The position numbers were made by a program, and so were the translations under genes. Positions 7,721-39,734 of a stretch of 64,000 nt of DNA are shown here, in pieces. Where the stretch lies: the NCBI GenBank assembly GCA_013791955.1, contig VMSW01000007.1, forward strand, positions 620,001-684,000, in the 5' to 3' direction. The first letter of the stretch is position 1. Every line of letters begins with the position of its first letter. The notes beneath the pieces were generated by a model. It saw only the letters and a program-made list of their open reading frames with translations. It was not told the DNA's origin and made no database searches. The DNA is from Propionicimonas sp. (GTDB lineage: Bacteria; Actinomycetota; Actinomycetes; Propionibacteriales; Propionibacteriaceae).

Positions 7721-9448
7721 TCAGGGCTGCCGGGGCGGCAGGATCTCCAGCTTCGGGTATCGCGGCTTCCACATGTGCTGGTAGATGTCGTTGATCGGAT
7801 TGGTCAGCGGACGTCGGGCCAAGCCCTGGGTCTGGGCTGTTTCGGCTACCGCCTTGGCAACGGTGGCCGCGACCAAGCGAAGGTCCGCCATCGACGGCAG
7901 CAGGGATGCGCCAGGGCGGTATTCGTTCATCAATCCGGCCAGGGCATCGGCGGCGGCGTAGATCATGCCGGGGCTGACCCTTTTTGCCTGCACAACGGAG
8001 ACGCCAAGCCCGAGGCCGGGGAAGATCAGCGCGTTGTTGGCTTGCGCGATCGTGTGATAAACCTCGCCGTGCTTGATCGTGCCGAAGGGACTGCCGGTGG
8101 CGATCAGGGCGAGCCCGTCGGTCCATTCAAGGATGTCGGCAGGGTGAGCCTCGCAGCGGCTGGTCGGATTCGACAGCGGCATGATGATCGGGCGCTCGCA
8201 GTGTTTGGCCATCTCGCGCACAACCTCTTCGGTGAAAGCGCCGTGCTGAGCGGAGGTGCCAATGAGGATCGTGGGCCGCACGTGCCGGACGGCCTCGATG
8301 AGGCTGATCCGCTTCGGATCGGCCACGTCCCAGTCGGCCATCTCCGCGCGGGAGCGAGCGTAGGGGAGCTGGAAGTCCCGGACGCCAGGGTTGTCGGCAA
8401 CGATCAGACCCTTTGAGTTGAAGGCCCAGAACTGCTGATAGGCCTGATCGGCCGGCAGCCCCATGCGGCCCATCGCCTCCCGAATCAGGTCGGCCACGCC
8501 AGCCCCGGCAGTACCGGCGCCATAGATCAGTACCCGGTGTTGGGGTAGCTGGGTGCCGGTGAGCCGGACGGCGGCCAGCACTGCGGCCAGCACCACCGCG
8601 GCGGTGCCTTGAATGTCGTCATTGAAGGTGGAGATCTGGTCGCTGTAGCGATTGAGGATGCGGTGGGCGTTGGCCGCGCCGAAGTCCTCCCAGTGAAGCA
8701 GGGCGTTGGGGAACAGCTTGTTGACCGTGTTGACGAACAACTCGATGAACTCGTCGTAGCGCTCGCCGCGTACCCGCGCATGCCGCTCGCCCAGGTAGAG
8801 GTCGCTGTTCAAAAGGCCGAGGTTGTCGGTACCCACGTCGAGCACGACCGGGATGGCCCTCCGGGGGTGGATTCCGGCGGCCGCGGTGTAGACGCTGAGC
8901 TTGCCGACCGCGATCTGGAACCCACCGACGCCTTGATCGCCGATGCCCAGAATGCCTTCGGAGTCAGTCACCACGACCAGATCGACGTCGTCGGCGTCGA
9001 GTTCGAAATCGCGAAGGGATTGCTCGACCAAGTCTGGGTGGTCGATGGAGAGGAAGACGCCCCGGGCGCCGGTGTACTCGTGGCTAAACCGCTCGATCGC
9101 CTCCCCGATGGTCGGGGTGTAGATGATCGGCAGCATTTCTTCCAGATGCTCGCTCAGCAGCCGGTAGAACAGCACTTCGTTGCGGTCACGCAGTTGGGCC
9201 AAGTAGATGAACTTCGACAGCGGCGAAGGGGAGCGGCTGTACTGGGCGTAGGTGCGCCGCAGCTGTTCTTCGATGGTGGTGACGCGGCTGGGCAGCAGGC
9301 CGGACAATCCAAGTGCTTCGCGCTCTTCGATGGTGAACGCAGTGCCGCGGTTCGCCATCGGATGGACCAGTATCAGCCGGCCCCGTGCGCTGATCTCCAG
9401 CACCCCATCTCGAACGGTGGTGTCCAGCCGGAAATCTGCTTGCTTCAT
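7721..9448 (-). CDS. NAD(P)-dependent malic enzyme
   Basis: This 575-residue enzyme oxidatively decarboxylates malate to pyruvate. It has the large eukaryote-like malic enzyme layout: YTPTIGEAIERFSH near the N-terminus, the catalytic region VVTDSEGILGIGDQGVGG, the metal site EDFGAANAHRIL, FNDDIQGTAAVVLA, and the nucleotide-binding GAGTAGAGVADL. Start 9448 follows AAGGAAGTGGAACT; the frame runs further upstream, but that part lacks family similarity and carries no such site. It is divergent from a padR gene across about 160 bases that contain an inverted repeat. Confidence 0.92.
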   Translation of the reverse strand: MKQADFRLDTTVRDGVLEISARGRLILVHPMANRGTAFTIEEREALGLSGLLPSRVTTIEEQLRRTYAQYSRSPSPLSKFIYLAQLRDRNEVLFYRLLSEHLEEMLPIIYTPTIGEAIERFSHEYTGARGVFLSIDHPDLVEQSLRDFELDADDVDLVVVTDSEGILGIGDQGVGGFQIAVGKLSVYTAAAGIHPRRAIPVVLDVGTDNLGLLNSDLYLGERHARVRGERYDEFIELFVNTVNKLFPNALLHWEDFGAANAHRILNRYSDQISTFNDDIQGTAAVVLAAVLAAVRLTGTQLPQHRVLIYGAGTAGAGVADLIREAMGRMGLPADQAYQQFWAFNSKGLIVADNPGVRDFQLPYARSRAEMADWDVADPKRISLIEAVRHVRPTILIGTSAQHGAFTEEVVREMAKHCERPIIMPLSNPTSRCEAHPADILEWTDGLALIATGSPFGTIKHGEVYHTIAQANNALIFPGLGLGVSVVQAKRVSPGMIYAAADALAGLMNEYRPGASLLPSMADLRLVAATVAKAVAETAQTQGLARRPLTNPINDIYQHMWKPRYPKLEILPPRQP

Positions 9449-30200: not shown

Positions 30201-30353
30201 GGTGTGCCCTTCTGTGGGGTTGCCTCCTTGTGGGTCAACCATCTACGTCCTCAGGCACCTTATGCATTCGCGATAGTGATAAGGGGTGTTATCAGCCGAT
30301 GGGGATTGCAACACCGGTGCACCGGTGGTGTGATGTACCGGAGGAGGTTTGCC

Positions 30354-32288
30354 GTGACCCAGCTGATGACAATGCGTGACATCGCCGGTTTGGCGCGCGT
30401 GCAGCGTCCGGTCGTATCGGTGTGGCGGCGCCGTTCGCGGGCCACCGCCCATCCCTTCCCGCCAGCCCGCCAGAAGCGCGATGGCCAGGAGTTCTTCCTG
30501 CGCGACGACGTAGTGGCGTGGCTGGAAGACACTCAGCGGGGGAACAATCCCGAGGCCCGGGCGGACGCTGCCGCGCACTCGCTGCTTGCTGGCGGGAGCA
30601 CCAAGGACGCTGAAACCATCAGCGCCCTCGTCACGTTGCGGCAACTGATCGGCGAACCGCTGGCACCGCTCCAACCAGACGACCTGCTCGATCTGGCTGA
30701 CGAACACGACCCAGACGATCGATACTTCCGGCGCGAAATGGAACGCTGCGCCGATCTCGCCCGGTTTGCCCGCGATGCCGACGATCTAGTCGAGGCTTCC
30801 TGGGGTGAGCTGACCGCCCACCAGCACCTCGTCGAAACCCGGCTGCGAACACCGGGAAGCGCGCTGAGCCGTACCGTGCTCTCCGACGCCGGTCGTCGTT
30901 TCCTGTTGGGCCTGATCGGCCCGCTCGCCGCCGAGTTGGGGCATCCCGGTCTGATGGATCCGACCGGGGCCGCGGTAGACCTGCTGGCCGAGTGCGCGAC
31001 GTCCCTGGAGTTGCCGGTACGTGTGATGGACGGCGATACCGGCGCGCAGCGGTTGACTCGCCGTCAGTTGCTGCTTGCTGGTGTTCGTCCACGCTTGGTA
31101 GAGCGGGGGCGCGGCGAATGGTCGATGACCGACCCGACCGCTCACTTGGTGGTGCTACCCAGTGCCGCCGAACCGCAGCTTGACGAACTCGGGCAGTTGG
31201 AGTTTCTCGATGAGATCGTTCTGCAGTTGACCGCCGACCAGTTGGTGCTTTGCCTGGCGCCGGCGGCCACCTTGACCGACCCTCTCACCGGGACGGCGCT
31301 CGCCAAGCGTGACCAGTTGCTTCGCGGCGGGCATGTGCGGGCCATCGTCCGGCTGCCTGCTGGGCTGCGTCCGGCCCAAGCCAGGGAGCATTCGGCGTTG
31401 TGGCTGCTGGGCAGCCCCGACCCGACACCGGTAGGTGAGCGGCGCACTCTGGTGGCCGATCTGGGCGGGGTTCAGTTACGGCAGTGCGAAGGTCTGGCCG
31501 ATGATTTGTTGGCCGCCTGGCAAGGCAGCCGGGGTGCTCGGCGACGTGCCTGGGCGCAGCTGCATCCGGTGTTCACCGCTTTGCTGGTTTCGGCCAGTGA
31601 CACCTTGGTTCCGCCGCGACCTCAGCGGGCGGTTGGCCGCTCTCGGGCAGGTGCGGACTGGGCCGTGGAGTTGCGTGCCGCCGATACTGCCGAGCGGCTG
31701 AAGCCCTATCGATTTGACGTTCTTGATCAGGTTGCCGAAGGGCTGAGCGTGGCTCAGGCGATAGCGCGCGGATGGCTGCGGGTGCTGTCGGGGCGAAAGG
31801 TCGACGTCTCCGGGCTGGCTGCGGGCACGGTGCCGGTCGTTTCCGATCCGGCCGCCCCGGGCGCCATGCGGCGAGTTGATCGGCTGGCACTGCTGGCGCG
31901 CGTCGGGGGTGAGCTGACCGAGCCGGGCGACATCATCTTTTCAGTGCGCCCCAAGCCGTCCGCTGTGATCGACGAAGAGGGCGGCACCTTGGTGTTGGCC
32001 CCGGCCCGCATCTTGCGGGTGCGCTCGTCCGCCCCGCTGGTTGCGCGCGCGGTTGCCGCTCGGATCAATGCGGCCACGTCCAGCACGTGGCGCACCTGGC
32101 CGCTGGCCGTCGTACCCGAACCCACTCGCGACGTCCTCGGCGAGGCACTCACCGACCTGGCCGCCCAGCGGGCACGGTTGGTGGCGGAACTGGCCGGGTT
32201 GGACGCCCTCACCACCGACCTCACCACGGCTGTCGAATCACGACAGCTCAGCATCAGCAAGGAGAATCATGGCCCGACGTCGCACTGA
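30354..32288 (+). CDS. HTH / pseudo-N6-methyltransferase / recognition-domain protein of the type I locus
   Basis: The 644-residue protein begins with an HTH (MRDIAGLARVQRPVVSVWRR, about 7-26). A region colinear with HsdM follows. Motif I reads DPTGAAVDLL (Asp at about 202) instead of DPxCGSGG, and the NPPF position reads VVLPSAAEP (about 266-274). Both SAM binding and catalysis therefore look lost, while flanking helices such as RRQLLLAGV remain. The C-terminal third (about 475-640) resembles an HsdS target-recognition domain plus coiled coil (EALTDLAAQRARLVAELAGLDALT in pieces). GAGGAGG precedes GTG 30354. It overlaps hsdM by 20 bases, so it belongs to the operon. A regulatory or DNA-guiding role is inferred. 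Confidence 0.65.
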   Translation: MTQLMTMRDIAGLARVQRPVVSVWRRRSRATAHPFPPARQKRDGQEFFLRDDVVAWLEDTQRGNNPEARADAAAHSLLAGGSTKDAETISALVTLRQLIGEPLAPLQPDDLLDLADEHDPDDRYFRREMERCADLARFARDADDLVEASWGELTAHQHLVETRLRTPGSALSRTVLSDAGRRFLLGLIGPLAAELGHPGLMDPTGAAVDLLAECATSLELPVRVMDGDTGAQRLTRRQLLLAGVRPRLVERGRGEWSMTDPTAHLVVLPSAAEPQLDELGQLEFLDEIVLQLTADQLVLCLAPAATLTDPLTGTALAKRDQLLRGGHVRAIVRLPAGLRPAQAREHSALWLLGSPDPTPVGERRTLVADLGGVQLRQCEGLADDLLAAWQGSRGARRRAWAQLHPVFTALLVSASDTLVPPRPQRAVGRSRAGADWAVELRAADTAERLKPYRFDVLDQVAEGLSVAQAIARGWLRVLSGRKVDVSGLAAGTVPVVSDPAAPGAMRRVDRLALLARVGGELTEPGDIIFSVRPKPSAVIDEEGGTLVLAPARILRVRSSAPLVARAVAARINAATSSTWRTWPLAVVPEPTRDVLGEALTDLAAQRARLVAELAGLDALTTDLTTAVESRQLSISKENHGPTSH

Positions 32289-33924
32289 CGCAGCCCCGCA
32301 AGCACCGACCACGATGAAGGAACTCAAAGACACGTTGTGGAAGGCCGCTGACAAGCTGCGCGGTTCGCTGGAGGCCTCCGATTACAAGGATGTGATCTTG
32401 GGTCTGGTGTTTCTGAAGTACGTCTCGGATTCGTTCGAGGAACGTCGAGCTCAGATTCGTGCCGAGTTGGAGGCCGACGGTGGCTACGTCGAAGGCGACA
32501 TCGATGAATCGCTGGAAGACAAGGACGAATACTCCGGCGCCGGGGTGTTCTGGGTGCCGGTGAATGCGCGCTGGCAGTTTCTGGCCGAGCGGGCCAAGGG
32601 CACCGAGACAAAGACCATCGGCGAGCTCATCAACGAGGCGATGGGTTGGTTGATGGAAGCCAACCCGCCACTGAACGGCACTCTGCCGCGCATCTACAAC
32701 CGCGAAGGCGTCGATCAGCGGCGGCTGGGGGAGTTGCTCGACTTGTTCAACTCGGCTCGGTTCACCGGCGAGGGGGCGAGTAAGGCCCGCGACCTGCTGG
32801 GTGAGGTGTACGAGTATTTCCTGGGCAAGTTCGCTGCCGCCGAGGGCAAGCGGGGTGGCGAGTTCTACACCCCGCCCAGCGTGGTACGGGTGTTGGTGGA
32901 AGTGATGGAGCCGAGCGCGGGACGCATCTACGACCCGTGCTGCGGCTCGGGGGGCATGTTCGTCCAGGCCGAGAAGTTCCTGGAGGCACACCACCGCAAC
33001 CCCGCCGAGTTGAGCGTCTACGGCCAGGAGAACATGGAGCGCACTTGGCGAATGGCCAAGATGAACCTGGCCATTCACGGACTGATCGGCAATCTCGGCC
33101 CGAGTTGGGGTGACACCTTCGCCCGCGATCTGCACCCCGACCTGCAGGCCGACTACGTGTTGGCCAACCCGCCGTTCAACATCAAAGACTGGGCGCGCAA
33201 CGAGGACGATGCTCGCTGGCGCTACGGCGTCCCACCGGCTGGCAATGCGAACTACGCCTGGTTGCAGCACATCGTTAGCAAGCTGGGCCCGAAGGGTCAG
33301 GCCGGAGTGGTGCTGGCCAACGGTTCGATGAACACCAATTCCGGCGGCGAGGGCCAAATTCGGGCCAACCTCGTCGAGGCCGACTTGGTGAGTGTGATGG
33401 TGGCGCTGCCCACCCAGCTGTTCCGCTCCACCGGCATTCCGGTTTGCCTGTGGTTCTTCGCGAAGGACAAGAAGTGGACGGCCGACCGTCGCGGCCAAGT
33501 GCTGTTCGTCAACGCCCAAAACCTTGGCTACATGGTTGATCGTGCCGAACGCGCCCTATCCGAGGAAGACATCGCCAAGATCGCCGACACCTACCGCGCT
33601 TGGCGAGGCGAGCCTCAGTTGCCTGAGCCCGTCGAAGTCCCCAGCCAGTTGGCTGAGCTTGTCGAAGCCTCTGTCGACCCTTCGACAAGCTCAGGGGTCT
33701 ATGCCGACATCCCCGGCTTCTGCTACTCCGCAACCCTGGCCGAGATCAAGGACGCCGAATATGCCCTCACTCCCGGACGATACGTCGGCACTGCCGAAAT
33801 CGCCGATGACGGCGAACCAATCGACGACAAAGTGAAGCGCCTTACCGAGGAGTTGCTAGCTGCTTTGGATGAGTCGGCCCGGCTGGACGCGGTGGTGCGC
33901 GAGCAGTTGGGGCGGTTGGCGTGA
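32269..33924 (+). CDS. hsdM: Type I restriction-modification methyltransferase subunit HsdM with repeat insertion
   Basis: This 551-residue adenine-N6 methyltransferase subunit has an N-terminal helical domain (LWKAADKLRGSLEASDYKDV start). The SAM motif is YDPCCGSGGMF (about 222-232) and the catalytic motif ANPPFN (about 301-306), both intact. Near the C-terminus, bases 33616-33696 are an 81-base copy of the dispersed repeat. It is read in frame and adds 27 residues between AWRGE and YADIPGFC, where relatives run straight on. ATG 32269 follows AAGGAGAATC. The stop overlaps the hsdS start by 4 bases. Confidence 0.93.
   Translation: MARRRTDAAPQAPTTMKELKDTLWKAADKLRGSLEASDYKDVILGLVFLKYVSDSFEERRAQIRAELEADGGYVEGDIDESLEDKDEYSGAGVFWVPVNARWQFLAERAKGTETKTIGELINEAMGWLMEANPPLNGTLPRIYNREGVDQRRLGELLDLFNSARFTGEGASKARDLLGEVYEYFLGKFAAAEGKRGGEFYTPPSVVRVLVEVMEPSAGRIYDPCCGSGGMFVQAEKFLEAHHRNPAELSVYGQENMERTWRMAKMNLAIHGLIGNLGPSWGDTFARDLHPDLQADYVLANPPFNIKDWARNEDDARWRYGVPPAGNANYAWLQHIVSKLGPKGQAGVVLANGSMNTNSGGEGQIRANLVEADLVSVMVALPTQLFRSTGIPVCLWFFAKDKKWTADRRGQVLFVNAQNLGYMVDRAERALSEEDIAKIADTYRAWRGEPQLPEPVEVPSQLAELVEASVDPSTSSGVYADIPGFCYSATLAEIKDAEYALTPGRYVGTAEIADDGEPIDDKVKRLTEELLAALDESARLDAVVREQLGRLA
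33616..33696. repeat. Dispersed palindromic repeat inside hsdM
   Basis: These 81 bases match the repeat family. CTGAGCTTGTCGAAG at 33653-33667 and CTTCGACAAGCTCAG at 33680-33694 form a perfect 15-base inverted repeat with a 12-base loop. The length is a multiple of three and the frame stays open. Confidence 0.9.
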
Positions 33925-35129
33925 ACACTTTGCAGCAAATTCTCCTTGACACTCGGGACGGCGATTGGGGGGCTGACGTAGGTGAAGAGGCGCAGCGCTT
34001 TCGTGTTGTACGAGGGACGGACTTTGAGTCGCTCTCCTGCGGCGATGCGGCTAGCGTTCCAACACGGTTCCTGACGGAGGCGTCTAGCGGCCGGCGGACG
34101 CTCAAGCTGGGAGATGTACTCATTGAGACCGCCGGAGGGTCCCGCGGCAGGCCAACCGGGCGAACCATGCTGATCACGAAGCGAGTGCTGGACGCTCTTC
34201 AGGAGCAGGCCACTTGCGCCAGCTTTGCCCGATTCCTACGGCCAGACCCTGACCAGGTCGATTCTGGATACCTCTACTACCGCCTCCAGAGTGCCTATCG
34301 AGCCGGTGTCATGGAGAGCTTCCAGGTTCAGCACACAGGGGTCGCTCGCTTCCAATACACGACCTTCGCTTCGACCTATCAGATCGACCTGCCACCCCTC
34401 CCCACCCAACGCGCCATCGCCGAAGTCCTCGGCGCCCTCGACGACAAGATCGCCGCGAACGTGAGGCTCCAGGATTCGTCTCGCGCCCTGCGAGCTGCCT
34501 CGCTTGGGTGGGCCCTGGGTCGGGGCTCGGTGAGCGTACCCATCGGCGAGGCGACGGCTCTTCTAGGCCGCGGCAAGGCTCCGAAGTACACCGAAACGTA
34601 CGGTGGTGTGTGGGCCATCAACCAGAAGTGCGTTCGTGGCGGAGTAGTTTCTGTCGAACAAGCTCGCCTTGCCGAGGCGATGAAAGAGCCTCAACTGCAG
34701 GTGGGTGACACTCTCGTGAACTCCACCGGCCAAGGGACCCTTGGCCGGGTTGGCGTCTGGCGTGAAGATGTGGGCGCGTTCCCGGATTCACATGTAACGC
34801 TTGTTCGTTTTGATCCTGGAAAGGTGGATCCGTGGGTGGGCGCCGAGGCGGTGCTCGCGGCGGAGTCGGCCATTGAAGCGCTCGGTGAAGGGAGCACGGG
34901 CCAGACCGAGCTCAGTCGAAAGGCGCTGACGGAACTGCAAATCGAATTGCCCGCCGCTGGCCTTCATGGTGGCCTCGGCGAGCGGTTGCGGCAGCTGCAC
35001 CTCCGCGAACACCAAGCCGCAAACGAGTCCCGCCACCTCGTCACCCTCCGCGACACGCTGCTGCCGCACCTGATGAGCGGTCGCCTGACCGTCCGCGAAG
35101 CCGAGAAGCAGGTTGAGGCGGCATTGTGA
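33921..35129 (+). CDS. hsdS: Type I restriction-modification specificity subunit HsdS
   Basis: The 402-residue protein has two target-recognition domains, about 1-155 and 200-345. Each is followed by a conserved coiled-coil spacer: LPPLPTQRAIAEVLGALDDK (about 156-175) and RHLVTLRDTLLPHLMSGRL (about 371-389). It reads the two halves of the recognition site for both methylation and cleavage. GTG 33921 overlaps hsdM (GTGA), and its own stop overlaps the next gene the same way. Base composition is a little lower in GC than hsdM, usual for HsdS. Confidence 0.9.
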   Translation: MNTLQQILLDTRDGDWGADVGEEAQRFRVVRGTDFESLSCGDAASVPTRFLTEASSGRRTLKLGDVLIETAGGSRGRPTGRTMLITKRVLDALQEQATCASFARFLRPDPDQVDSGYLYYRLQSAYRAGVMESFQVQHTGVARFQYTTFASTYQIDLPPLPTQRAIAEVLGALDDKIAANVRLQDSSRALRAASLGWALGRGSVSVPIGEATALLGRGKAPKYTETYGGVWAINQKCVRGGVVSVEQARLAEAMKEPQLQVGDTLVNSTGQGTLGRVGVWREDVGAFPDSHVTLVRFDPGKVDPWVGAEAVLAAESAIEALGEGSTGQTELSRKALTELQIELPAAGLHGGLGERLRQLHLREHQAANESRHLVTLRDTLLPHLMSGRLTVREAEKQVEAAL

Positions 35130-36172
35130 ATTTCCTTGACCAGATCGCACTCGCCTCTCTCGGAGTGGCTGTGCTGTCTGTGGTCGTCACGGTGGTTCTC
35201 ACCGCCGTCGTGGCGCGGTCGGGAAGTCGTTCGCAGGAAAAGGCGCAGCAGATCCTTGAGGCGCTGCAGGGGCTAGTGACGGCGAATCGTCTGGATCGGC
35301 TCGCCGGGCAAGCGGCGGAGTTGAGCAACCACGACGATCTATTGGCCGTAGTCGCCGAGGCCCGGAGTGTCGGCGAGGGCCGGGCGGTGCGTCGAGTGGA
35401 AGAGAGTTACTGGGCGAACTCGGCGGTGCGGGCGGGGTCGGTCGACGCCAACCTTGCTGAATCCGTACGGATCACTCAAGAAAACCTTGCTGACAAGCTC
35501 GATCGATGTGGAGGCGACCGGGTCTTCGAGCTGGGCAAGTTCGTGTCTGTTGCGAAGGATTCGTCGGAATTCATGCCAGAAGTCGTTGCGCTCTGGCTCC
35601 TCAGCCAGTCCTCCGCGCCCACCCCGTTCAGGGAGTCCGAGATTCAGTATGTGCTTGAGCGAGGCCCAGATGAGTTGCTTGGTGTCCTTCTTCGTGAGCT
35701 GGGGTCTTTTCGCATGGGTTGGTCCGATGAGGTCAAGGCCGGGGCAATCGGCGCCGCCGCTGCGGTCTATCTAGGCCGAATCGGCTACGACTTCAACAAC
35801 CCCGATGGGCACACGGGGGCGACCCATGAACGTGCCACGCGCAATGCTGCCCTTGCAGGCAGCGTGTTGACCGGTCTTGCGTTGGCGCTCAAATCCGGTC
35901 ATCTGAAGGGTCTTGCCCGGTCCGCAGATCCTGCCCGGACGAGAGTGGGAGCTCTGTTGGTGGCGATGGCTGGCGCCGCGAGCTACTCAGACAAACATGG
36001 GGCGATGCGGGTTCTACAGTCGATTGGTGGCGTGGGTGTCGAGCCTTCGAGGTTGGGCGGTTACGGCAGCGAATACCGTTTTGGGATCAGCAAGTTCGCG
36101 GAGTACCAGCCGGGGCTGCTCACTGAGTTCTGGCCAGAGGGTGCGGCCTATCTGGCAGAGGTGGCCTCGTGA
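35126..36172 (+). CDS. Membrane-anchored protein of unknown function inside the type I operon
   Basis: The 348-residue product has one N-terminal transmembrane helix (about 8-30, LASLGVAVLSVVVTVVLTAVV) and a largely helical soluble part without a motif I know. Short helical stretches (FMPEVVALWLLSQSS, ELLGVLLRELGSF, GLALALKSGHLKGLARS) suggest an alpha-solenoid. It starts at GTG 35126 within the hsdS stop and its own stop overlaps the next frame, so it is translated as part of the operon. It may add membrane attachment or an immunity function, which is inference. Confidence 0.6.
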   Translation: MNFLDQIALASLGVAVLSVVVTVVLTAVVARSGSRSQEKAQQILEALQGLVTANRLDRLAGQAAELSNHDDLLAVVAEARSVGEGRAVRRVEESYWANSAVRAGSVDANLAESVRITQENLADKLDRCGGDRVFELGKFVSVAKDSSEFMPEVVALWLLSQSSAPTPFRESEIQYVLERGPDELLGVLLRELGSFRMGWSDEVKAGAIGAAAAVYLGRIGYDFNNPDGHTGATHERATRNAALAGSVLTGLALALKSGHLKGLARSADPARTRVGALLVAMAGAASYSDKHGAMRVLQSIGGVGVEPSRLGGYGSEYRFGISKFAEYQPGLLTEFWPEGAAYLAEVAS

Positions 36173-36312
36173 CCCACGAGTTCACCCGGTACATCCAGCG
36201 CCGCCACCACGGCATCAGCGGATTTTCGCCGCAGAACTTCTGGCAGATGCGGCAGCTTCACCAGACCCATGCTGATGCCAAGGCTCTCTCACCACAGGCG
36301 AGAGAAACGACC
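36169..36312 (+). pseudogene. Remnant of a DUF1016 (YhcG-type) nuclease gene
   Basis: The frame from GTG 36169 encodes HHGISGFSPQNFWQMRQLHQ and following residues. These match the N-terminal domain of DUF1016/PDDEXK proteins, typically RGFSRRNLxRMRQFY. Similarity stops near residue 48. The frame runs on to 36585 as unrelated sequence, overlapping the hsdR start. Full proteins are about 350 residues with a C-terminal nuclease, which is absent. The overlap with the previous gene shows it was once part of the operon. Confidence 0.6.
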
Positions 36313-36575
36313 TGGACAGGATGTCGTGAGTTCGTTTGTGGGGGTGATGCGTCGCTCGACTTACGCGTTCAAGTTAGTTATGAGGCCGCGGAGAGCGACA
36401 CCAAATCCATACTTAAGCCCATTGTTAGTTGTGAGACTCGGACGAGATGCATCCGTGGCCCGCGAGCGGCATTGACTTACCCGTCGGTCGCTGGTCGTCA
36501 GATTGCGCATCCTCACCCTCAGGGTGATGTTCGGTCATCTAATGATCGGCCGCTCAACGAAAGGAAGCCCGGCAG
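36313..36575. other. Spacer before hsdR
   Basis: This stretch carries no supported gene and is visibly richer in A and T than its surroundings. It may be decayed coding DNA from the nuclease remnant. It could now hold a separate hsdR promoter. GAAAGGAAG near 36560 is the hsdR ribosome binding site. Confidence 0.4.
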
Positions 36576-39500
36576 ATGGCACTAATCAGTGAAGCCGAAT
36601 GGGAGGCCACCGCGATCGAGGTATTGGGCGAGCAGGCGTGGGTGCCAGCCACCGGCACCCAGATCGCCCACGAGCGCCTCTCGGCGTCCGACATCTTCCT
36701 GCACGAACGGTTCCGCGAAGCTCTGGTGCGGCTGAACCCGGCCGTGCCCGAGACCTATCTGCGCCAGGCCGCGACCGAGATTCTCACCCCGTCCAGCCAG
36801 GACGCGATCACCGAAAACCGGCGACTACACGAGTTCCTGGTGCACGGCTACCGCGGCATCACCTATCTCGACAACGACGGCCTTGAGCAGAACCCCACCC
36901 TTCAGCTGATCGGGCGCGACCCGGGCGACAACGACTGGCTGGCGGTGCAGCAACTCACCATCAGTAACGCCGAACACCACCGCCGCTTCGACGTGGTCTG
37001 TTACCTCAACGGCTTGCCGGTGATCATTTGCGAACTCAAGCAGGCCGGGCTTGCCACCGCCGATCTGGCTGCTGCGCACAGCCAGCTAGGCACCTACCTT
37101 GCGGAGTTCCCGCTGGCTTTCCGCGGCTGCGTGCTGAGCGTGATTTCAGACGGCGTGACCGCTGGCTACGGCACCCCTTTCACTCCGCTGCACCACTACG
37201 CGTCCTGGAATGTCGACGACGACGGCTTGCCGCTGCAACTAGGGGAGTCGATCGAGGACACCGACTACAACACGGCTCTCGAGGTCACCTTCTACGGTTT
37301 GGGCAACCAGACGCGCTTCCTCGATCTGCTGCGAAACTTCACCGCCTTCGACGCCGGCGAGTTCGGGCTGGCCAAGCGCATCGCCAAGCCGCACCAATAC
37401 TTCGCCGTCAACAAAGCCCTCGGTCGCACAGTGACCGCAGTGAAGTCCGACGGGCGAGCCGGAGTCGTGTGGCACACCCAAGGCTCGGGCAAGTCGATGG
37501 AGATGGAGCTGTTCGCCAACCTGGTGATGCGCTCGGCCCACCTACTCAACCCGACCATCGTGGTGATCACCGATCGGCGCGAACTCGACGGACAGCTTTA
37601 CCAAGGATTTGCCGCCTCAACCCTGCTGCCGGAAAAGCCCATTCAGATCACCACCCGCTCGCAGTTGCGCACAGAGCTGACCCAGCGTTCCAGCGGGGGC
37701 ATCTTGTTCACCACCTTGCAGAAGTTCGGCCGCACCCTCGAGGAGCGCGAGTCGGGCGCCGATCATCCGCTGCTAAGCGAGCGCCGCAACATCGTGGTGA
37801 TCGTGGACGAAGCCCACCGCTCGCACTACGACAACCTGGACGGCTACGCGCGCTTCTTGCGCGACGCGCTGCCGCACGCCACCCTGATCGCTTTCACGGG
37901 CACCCCGGTCAGCACCGTCGACCACAACACCCAAGAGGTCTTCGGCACCTACATCGACATCTACGACCTGACCAGAGCGGTGAGTGATGGCGCCACGGTG
38001 TCGGTCATGGTGGAACCGCGGTTGGTGAAGGTTGCCTTTGCCGACGACGTCTCCCCCGAAGACCTCGACCGGGCCGCCGATGAGGCCACCATTGGGCTGG
38101 ACGAGGTGGAGCGCGAGCGGCTGGAGAAATCGGTGGCGGTGATCAACGCCGTGTACGGCGCGCCAGCCCGGCTGGCCACCTTGGCTGCCGACATCGTGGC
38201 GCACTGGGAGACGCGCCGGGAGCGGATGCGTCCGCTGATCGACGGGCCGGGCAAAGCAATGATCGTGGGCGCTACCCGGCAGATCTGTGCCGACCTGTAC
38301 GCCCAGCTGATCGAGCTGCGGCCCGACTGGCACTCCGACGCCCTCGAAGGTGGCGTGCTCAAAGTGGTGTATTCGGGCAGCGCCGCCGACGACGGTGAAA
38401 TTGGCAAGCACGTCCGCCGGGATTCCGAGAACCAGGTGATCAAGAAGCGGCTGAAAGACGCCGAGGACTGCCTGGAGCTGGTGATCGTCAAAGACATGAT
38501 GCTCACCGGCTACGACTCGCCACCGCTGCACACCCTCTACCTGGATCGTCCGATGAAGGGCGCCCTCCTCATGCAGACCCTGGCTCGGGTGAACCGCACC
38601 TTCCGCGGCAAGGATTCCGGCCTGCTGGTGGGCTACGCCCCTCTGCTGGAAAGCCTCAGCGCGGCGCTGGCTGAATACAGCGACAGCGATCAGGAGCATC
38701 GTCCGGTGGGGCGCCTGGCCTCCGAAGCTGTTGATCTTGCTCGCACGCTGCTCGAACAGTTGCGGGAGCTGGCTGCTGGCTACGACTGGCGGGCAAAGGT
38801 GGTGGGGCCGAAGGGTTGGCTGAAAGCGACCACGGGTCTGACTGCGTGGCTGCGCAACCCGCAGATGCCGGGCAATCAGGTGCCAGAAGGCGAGATTGGG
38901 CTGGCTGGACGGTTCCGGCAGCTTTCCGGGCAGCTGGGACGGGCCTGGGCGCTGGCGGCTGGTTACACGAACCTCTCCGACGTGCGTGACGAAGTGCGCT
39001 TCTATGAGGAAGTGCGGGTCTGGATGGCCAAGTTCGACGCGGCCGAGCGAGTAGCGCGCGGCGAGCCCGTCCCCGAAGAAGTCGCCAGGCTGCTGCGGCA
39101 ACTGGCCTACCAAGCTACGGATTCCGGCGAGGTCATCGACATCTATGCCGCCGCCGAGATTACCCGGCCAGACTTCAACGACCTGACCCCGGCGGCGTTG
39201 GCCCGAGCTCAGCAGTCGAGCAACCCCCATCTGGCGATCGAGGCGCTGCGCGACGCGATTCTGGCCGAGGCGGCGCGTTCAACCGGGGCAAGCCTGGTGC
39301 GGCAGCGCGCTTTCAGCGAACGTCTTTCCGATGTGATGATCCGCTACACCAACAGCCAACTCAGTGCTGCCGAGGTGCTGATCGAACTGTTCGAGATGGC
39401 CAAAGATCTCGCCGCTGAAGCCAAGCGAGGCGAGCAGTTCGACCCGCCACTGGGCGTCGACGAACTGGCCACCTATGACGCCATTTCCGACAACGCCTCC

Positions 39501-39734
39501 GCGCTCGACGTGCTTGGCCAGGACATTTTGGCCGATATCGCCCGGCAGTTGGTGGCCATGATGCGCGCCGACGTAAAGACTGACTGGACCGTGCGCGACG
39601 ACGTCCGAGCGTCGCTGCGGGCCAAGATCAGGCGCCTATTGCGGAAATACAAGTACCCACCCGACCAAGCCGAAGGTGCGGTCAAGCAAGTCATCGAGCA
39701 GATGGAACTGCTCGCGCCGGGCGTGGCGGCGTAA
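36576..39734 (+). CDS. hsdR: Type I restriction endonuclease subunit HsdR
   Basis: The 1052-residue motor and nuclease subunit has an N-terminal PD-ExK nuclease (RRFDVVCYLNGLPVIICELKQ, about 134-154, split here). A superfamily 2 translocase follows, with Walker A HTQGSGKSMEM (about 301-311), DEAH (VIVDEAHRSHYD, about 410), FTGTP and the late motif RVNRT. A C-terminal helical domain binds the methylase core. All key motifs look intact, so the system should cut. It sits about 260 bases after the nuclease remnant rather than overlapping its neighbour. Confidence 0.93.
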   Translation: MALISEAEWEATAIEVLGEQAWVPATGTQIAHERLSASDIFLHERFREALVRLNPAVPETYLRQAATEILTPSSQDAITENRRLHEFLVHGYRGITYLDNDGLEQNPTLQLIGRDPGDNDWLAVQQLTISNAEHHRRFDVVCYLNGLPVIICELKQAGLATADLAAAHSQLGTYLAEFPLAFRGCVLSVISDGVTAGYGTPFTPLHHYASWNVDDDGLPLQLGESIEDTDYNTALEVTFYGLGNQTRFLDLLRNFTAFDAGEFGLAKRIAKPHQYFAVNKALGRTVTAVKSDGRAGVVWHTQGSGKSMEMELFANLVMRSAHLLNPTIVVITDRRELDGQLYQGFAASTLLPEKPIQITTRSQLRTELTQRSSGGILFTTLQKFGRTLEERESGADHPLLSERRNIVVIVDEAHRSHYDNLDGYARFLRDALPHATLIAFTGTPVSTVDHNTQEVFGTYIDIYDLTRAVSDGATVSVMVEPRLVKVAFADDVSPEDLDRAADEATIGLDEVERERLEKSVAVINAVYGAPARLATLAADIVAHWETRRERMRPLIDGPGKAMIVGATRQICADLYAQLIELRPDWHSDALEGGVLKVVYSGSAADDGEIGKHVRRDSENQVIKKRLKDAEDCLELVIVKDMMLTGYDSPPLHTLYLDRPMKGALLMQTLARVNRTFRGKDSGLLVGYAPLLESLSAALAEYSDSDQEHRPVGRLASEAVDLARTLLEQLRELAAGYDWRAKVVGPKGWLKATTGLTAWLRNPQMPGNQVPEGEIGLAGRFRQLSGQLGRAWALAAGYTNLSDVRDEVRFYEEVRVWMAKFDAAERVARGEPVPEEVARLLRQLAYQATDSGEVIDIYAAAEITRPDFNDLTPAALARAQQSSNPHLAIEALRDAILAEAARSTGASLVRQRAFSERLSDVMIRYTNSQLSAAEVLIELFEMAKDLAAEAKRGEQFDPPLGVDELATYDAISDNASALDVLGQDILADIARQLVAMMRADVKTDWTVRDDVRASLRAKIRRLLRKYKYPPDQAEGAVKQVIEQMELLAPGVAA

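Follow-up and report, generated by a model that had tools for sequence, protein, structure and literature searches.

The first gene of the type I restriction-modification operon in the 64,000-nucleotide stretch analysed here, hereafter the window, encodes a 644-residue protein, PM, that is probably (at odds of roughly 0.8) a dedicated transcriptional controller, and probably an activator, of the restriction system, derived from a dead M-S fusion. PM-type proteins form a family that is widespread among actinobacteria, and in it the enzyme itself seems to have given rise to the controller. The original prediction had suggested that PM could regulate its operon, and sequence comparison lends this strong support, through a conserved operator, covariation of that operator with the helix-turn-helix (HTH) and additional operator copies before separated hsdR genes. 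PM may also compete for or redirect the HsdM/HsdR complex, or sense unmodified DNA, the other two roles raised in that prediction.

PM heads an intact type I operon

The entire operon lies on the + strand and constitutes a type I restriction-modification system in which hsdM, hsdS and hsdR are all intact, with two small genes placed between hsdS and hsdR (Table 1). PM has a GTG start codon, preceded by GGAGGAGG, and its end runs 20 nt into hsdM, as had been claimed; the intactness of this hsdM, also claimed, is seen in its strong family match, and motif I and NPPF are invariant in a six-row alignment containing the window's HsdM. The upstream region 30201-30353, singled out earlier for DNA binding, contains the predicted operator. 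Elsewhere in the same genome, a second hsdM-like gene (L002, C1:109117-110112) is followed by an hsdS-like open reading frame.

Table 1 Features of the PM operon and its upstream region in the window
Feature	Position	Strand	Basis
Extended operator palindrome (predicted), GTGATAAGGGGTGTTATCAG	30276-30295	.	surrounds the 30278-30293 core
Palindromic operator (predicted), GATAAGGGGTGTTATC	30278-30293	.	exact GATAA-N6-TTATC
PM, putative pseudo-methyltransferase controller, 644 aa	30354-32288	+	ORF list, homologues, model fold
Winged HTH, residues 5-60, strongly conserved	30366-30533	+	alignment and AlphaFold2 model
Predicted dead N6-MTase-like domain, ~residues 178-420	30885-31613	+	limits taken from model; Foldseek; motifs
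Motif I, DPTGAAVDLL, from residue 202	30957-30986	+	motif scan
Motif IV place, LPSA	~31155-31166	+	region VVLPSAAEP from residue 266
Single HsdS-like recognition-domain fold, ~residues 446-590	31689-32123	+	model and Foldseek, limits from model
Long C-terminal helix, residues 591-628, resembling HsdS spacer helix	32124-32237	+	AlphaFold2 model
hsdM, intact	32269-33924	+	PF02384, 352 bits, E 3e-105; HsdM_N
hsdS	33921-35129	+	PF01420; PADLOC Specificity_I
348-aa operon protein, hydrophobic N terminus	35126-36172	+	no family above cut-off (Pfam, NCBIfam, PADLOC)
138-aa protein, weak DUF1016_N similarity below cut-off	36169-36585	+	Pfam
hsdR	36576-39734	+	HSDR_N, SWI2_SNF2, T1RH-like_C; TIGR00348

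PM keeps a methyltransferase fold and has lost the catalytic motifs

The AlphaFold2 model of PM, computed from a 95-row alignment (pLDDT 92.6, pTM 0.80), runs from a winged HTH with helices at residues 7-14, 18-27 and 50-60 through a helical segment and a Rossmann-like middle to a beta-rich C-terminal domain and a final helix of 38 residues. Among PDB structures, Foldseek ranks type I M proteins and M-S-like enzymes highest, including 7eew (E 3e-16), BpuSI (3s1s), HsdM (2okc, 5ybb) and PacII (7vs4), and PM shares the HsdM/N6-methyltransferase fold of 2okc, 5ybb and 3lkd with Foldseek probability 1.00; whole-chain TM-scores are modest, 0.23-0.53 among the 50 matches listed. The proposed N-terminal HTH and HsdM-like middle are thereby recovered, and PM has an N6-methyltransferase-type fold. 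An HsdS-like C-terminal domain with a coiled coil had been proposed as well: the recognition-domain fold is present, and the remainder is corrected to one domain and one long helix. HsdS is defined by two recognition domains and two spacers, of which the model has one each, and the C-terminal part of PM would thus correspond to about half an HsdS.

Motif I reads as originally noted, and the LPSA said to replace NPPF lies in the stretch VVLPSAAEP, which hhalign pairs with ANPPFN of HsdM, with poor statistics (probability 2%). From its sequence, PM is an N6-methyltransferase fold stripped of catalytic residues and is predicted to be inactive. Sequence profiles detect this ancestry weakly: PM matches no Pfam, NCBIfam or PADLOC model at E<=1, and a profile search of solved structures reaches HsdM 2okc at E 0.009, with two aminopeptidases at similar E. 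Among ten relatives scanned, only L108 reaches the Pfam N6_Mtase cut-off, and L013 and L112 have HTH_17 matches below cut-off.

A conserved family in front of hsdM

PM matches seven of the 96 relatives' genomes, counting the window's own, one of them (G053) over 41 residues only. In a genome-contig collection, 181 stretches encode a relative; of the best 80 of these, which were retained, all but one carry labels of genera that we take to be Actinobacteria, the exception being Sporosarcina. The contig of that operon (L073) has 63.5% G+C and bears the label Sporosarcina beigongshangi; mislabelling, contamination or transfer is possible. A scan of the class with the family alignment gave some match in 101 of 394 genomes; about 16 of these have a listed match that covers the greater part of the model, as a single piece or as two, and the majority of the rest match over the HTH only. 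Loci were read for the HTH-only matches L116-L126, which proved to be N6-methyltransferase-like proteins carrying an HTH (Pfam on four). Three plasmid records contain PM, each annotated 'hypothetical protein', for which the family now supplies an annotation; a phage search for relatives found none.

Whether PM always precedes hsdM had been posed as a check: hsdM follows directly in 93 of 98 loci, in many cases overlapping or abutting, and five are without an adjacent hsdM: L096 and L045 (both cut off by a contig end), L103 (no hsdM within the 1,452 nt available after PM), L097 (3 kb between the genes) and L114 (partial hsdM 0.8 kb away). The motif loss is conserved across the family, and none of the homologues is intact at the catalytic motif: [ND]PP[FYW] occurs in 0/95 PMs, anywhere in the protein, with SPPW within a few residues of the catalytic-motif place in L057 and L079. 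A loose motif I is found in 7/95, and the sole strict-pattern match (L073) falls outside the aligned motif. Both motif I and NPPF are kept in 93/93 HsdMs scoring above 600 bits in the same loci. The 95-row alignment omits L061, L102, L112 and L114 of the 99 sequences; the counts contain one identical pair (L034/L102), and L012, which is the same contig stretch as L018, was dropped.

Nearest to an intact-motif ancestor in the same context is L112 (DLSAGAGAGLL, YPPF), followed by hsdM, and a search with it matched 4/296 genomes, its own among them. A search of 296 genomes gave 26 HsdM matches at E<=1e-130, counting the window. Upstream of these, the PM signal exceeds 100 bits in 12, is weak (27 bits) in one and is missing from the ~0.9-1.5 kb covered in 13; this HsdM group therefore does not depend on having PM. 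In L217 (G173), an HsdM 70% identical to the window's is preceded by what seems to be only a broken PM remnant.

A conserved palindrome precedes PM genes

When the last 200 nt upstream of the 99 PM genes were scanned for dyads, GATAA-N6-TTATC ranked first (83/99), and the best dyad in one shuffled set reached only 4. Within 250 nt upstream, the exact site is found in 86/99; if sites that run past the called start are counted too, 86/98 loci other than the window have it, one extra. Most of the 13 genes without an exact site carry close variants, and L061 (with a poor start call) and L097 have no convincing site upstream of PM.

The copy before PM is the only one in the window's 3.10-Mb genome. 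A total of 93 copies was counted in the 1.61 Mb of the 98 other PM loci: 86 within 250 nt upstream of a PM start, four before hsdR and three elsewhere in L062. The latter, in Nocardia donostiensis, lie at 8418, 17849 and 19505, not before hsdR, one with TANNNT at 32 nt. Across 25 PM genomes there are 48 copies versus one of a reversed control pattern: 19 at PM, 11 at hsdR, the three in L062 and 15 in other places, such that 18/48 adjoin neither PM nor hsdR. In 117 other genomes of the class, not selected for PM, 26 copies occur in 19 genomes, and the reversed pattern occurs 14 times in 118. The 15 copies away from PM and hsdR come from G474, G475, G476, G477, G479, G480, G481, G484, G487 and G495 (loci L154-L156, L160, L161, L163-L167, L169 and L171-L174); several, from different Rhodococcus genomes, have a GGATAACGGTGATTATCC-like form in common, perhaps another element.

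Fixed spacing to a -10-like element

Downstream of the site, a TANNNT hexamer begins at 32-34 nt in 70/85 distinct PM promoters (85 distinct sequences out of 86), at 35 nt in 5/85, at 43-45 nt in 5/85 and at 36-42 nt in 0/85; shuffled controls gave at most five at any one offset. From this spacing we infer that TANNNT is the -10-like element of PM promoters. Taken as the -10, it places the centre of the site near -53 or roughly one turn of the helix beyond that, and the operator upstream of the inferred -35 position, ending ~45 bp before the inferred transcription start. A helically phased site just upstream of the -35 is a usual location of an activator, and the fixed helical phase upstream of the -10 suggests activation by contact with RNA polymerase. 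At L085 and L162 the ATG of hsdR comes 6 nt after the hexamer, a spacing consistent with leaderless mRNAs and with the -10 assignment. The window, its two nearest relatives (L018 and L019), L103 and L076 are without TANNNT at the usual offset; because the window, L018 and L019 have no clear hexamer there, activation is least certain in the window itself.

Separate hsdR genes usually carry a predicted operator of their own

The position of hsdR was determined in the same 25 PM genomes. In six, hsdR is contiguous, directly after hsdS or within about 200 nt, with no convincing site before it. In the other 19, hsdR lies at a distance of over 4 kb or on a different contig, and 17 of these 19 have their own operator copy, which is not a random-sample rate, because the 25 genomes were picked partly since hsdR was unseen in the first loci. 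The 19 distant or unlinked genes comprise 11 with an exact site within 170 nt upstream, one with a one-mismatch site, five with a half-degenerate site (one half-site kept, two mismatches in the other) and two with none. Of the 17 hsdR sites, 14 are followed by TANNNT at 32-35 nt and two at 43 nt, and one has no TANNNT. In L046 and L081 the 43-44-nt spacing occurs at both PM and hsdR, and in L063 a GATAG variant is common to both sites. Among 30 loci with a gap of 360-4125 nt before hsdR, three have a one-mismatch site and 27 have none within one mismatch; here we assume that hsdR is reached by read-through. The defined operator predicts targets of PM, unlinked hsdR genes among them.

At L113 (G112:C46:20275-20671), a 143-residue PM fragment comprising the HTH end has an exact operator upstream and stands directly before hsdR-like sequence, as if the PM body, hsdM and hsdS had been deleted.

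The HTH is the likely reader of the operator

Operator differences were compared with residue differences for 92 proteins with a usable site, phylogeny being handled by partial correlation on overall protein distance only. Covariation with the operator is found for residues 16-27 of the HTH (partial r 0.21, 0/500 permutations) and, less sharply, for the whole HTH (19/500), as opposed to the recognition domain, which shows none (310/500). R25 and V20 are among the top four covarying columns, and R25 against the exact site gives 80/6 and 5/8 (p 1.7e-5, phylogeny uncorrected). In L099 and L104, RQAV replaces RPVV and the half-sites are GTTAA; TANNNT in these variant-operator loci lies at offsets 26 and 36, outside the 32-35 rule. 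Since operator variation tracks the recognition helix and not the recognition domain, these comparisons favour the HTH as the reader of the operator over the recognition domain or some other protein.

Alternative readings and a proposed mechanism

Binding of the palindrome by PM as a repressor is an unlikely reading, although it has precedents: reviews (PMC3874152, PMC12707154) report that type II regulatory methyltransferases autorepress via an N-terminal HTH, and RptR is reported to repress a type I system. The type II operators described there overlap the promoter or sit between overlapping promoters, whereas the PM site keeps a fixed phase and ends ~45 bp before the inferred start; five PM and two hsdR promoters have it displaced by about one turn of the helix. 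We also consider it doubtful that PM acts chiefly as a structural component of the HsdM/S/R complex, in which it would be an asymmetric M-S partner tethered by its HTH, with regulation secondary. Such a role would suit the M-S fold, the many loci where the PM stop overlaps the hsdM start, and the existence of M1M2S enzymes, PacII (from its PDB title) among them. It leaves unexplained the operator copies before unlinked hsdR and the HTH-operator covariation; moreover, 13/26 related HsdMs occur without a PM signal upstream.

Type I targets have a bipartite geometry, which the N6 palindrome resembles, and it might instead be a recognition or methylation site for the PM recognition domain or HsdS. 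This seems very improbable, given that the HsdS proteins of five other loci are only 28-35% identical to the window's in the aligned part, yet the site is constant, that covariation falls on the HTH and that the site is located at promoters. A decaying pseudogene ahead of a normal type I system would account for the lost catalytic motifs, and the remnant in G173 might be seen in that light. We give this reading almost no credence: the window's PM and L018 differ by dN 0.28 and dS 1.11, five closer pairs have dN/dS of about 0.15-0.24, and 17 columns are invariant in 95 sequences, which indicates that PM is under purifying selection. A recent pseudogene is ruled out by dN/dS, conservation and hsdM context. 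As the motif loss is family-wide, the hsdM context kept and selection purifying, the catalytic losses are ancestral and PM has been retained.

Under the preferred reading of PM as an activating controller, its winged HTH, presumably as a two-fold dimer, would bind GATAA-N6-TTATC ~45-60 bp upstream of the transcription start. The targets would be its own operon, PM-hsdM-hsdS(-hsdR), plus hsdR where this is a separate unit. Contact with RNA polymerase would result in positive autoregulation and couple hsdR expression to PM. The family's conservation, the operator with its position, the covariation and the hsdR copies are established from sequence, and DNA binding, the dimer and activation are deduced. 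The dead M-S body would probably contribute to dimerisation and to feedback, for which it might dock HsdM or HsdS, and sensing by this body and delayed restriction are speculative. A delay like that from type II C proteins, as reviews describe it, would agree with the weaker hsdR operators of five genomes. We tentatively extend this to an assembly checkpoint, less likely than not, in which the dead body docks HsdM or HsdS so that PM activity would report a complete modification complex, and a strong operator at PM, set against weaker ones at hsdR, would delay the nuclease until the methylase is ready. If true, a type I system would be under temporal control by a fossil of its own enzyme. With this family and its operator, the long-standing problem of how restriction by type I systems is delayed upon entry into a new host becomes directly testable.

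Relation to known controllers

Type II systems have well-known transcriptional controllers. Among these, C (controller) proteins are small stand-alone HTH proteins, as opposed to PM with its 644 residues and several domains. As proposed for PM, they are dedicated autogenous controllers of restriction-modification, with a conserved operator before their own gene (86/99 for PM). In type II systems, C proteins are known to activate, and HTH-fused methyltransferases to autorepress. The latter (SsoII, Ecl18kI, EcoRII) resemble PM in having a methyltransferase fold and an N-terminal HTH, which acts at their own operon's promoter as is predicted for PM; according to reviews they are active autorepressing enzymes, whereas PM is without the catalytic motif and predicted inactive. 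PM further differs from them in that it is an M-S fusion of the N6 type, belongs to a type I system and has its site upstream of the inferred promoter elements.

For type I loci, the texts consulted name two regulators. A C-family protein of a Mycoplasma gallisepticum locus appears to repress its operon. RptR shares with the proposed role of PM that it is a conserved regulator of type I systems and has a conserved operator; it is described as a small repressor homodimer on TAGCTA conserved across Gammaproteobacteria, and PM differs in operator and size. HsdM-HsdS and PacII M1M2S share the M-S body fold, but PM is without the catalytic motif, has one recognition domain and adds an HTH. PM belongs to none of these kinds: its catalytic motif is lost, it is large and its operator is another. 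The titles and opening abstract lines of a mostly open-access literature contained no description of a dead controller derived from HsdM.

Closest in architecture are the actinobacterial HTH-N6_Mtase proteins (L116-L126), which combine an HTH with an N6-methyltransferase and, unlike PM, retain motif I; they are probably the ancestral type. Upstream of ten of their genes, no palindromic dyad was found in common. Several of them read DPPP or similar at the catalytic motif, and partial decay may be common in the wider family.
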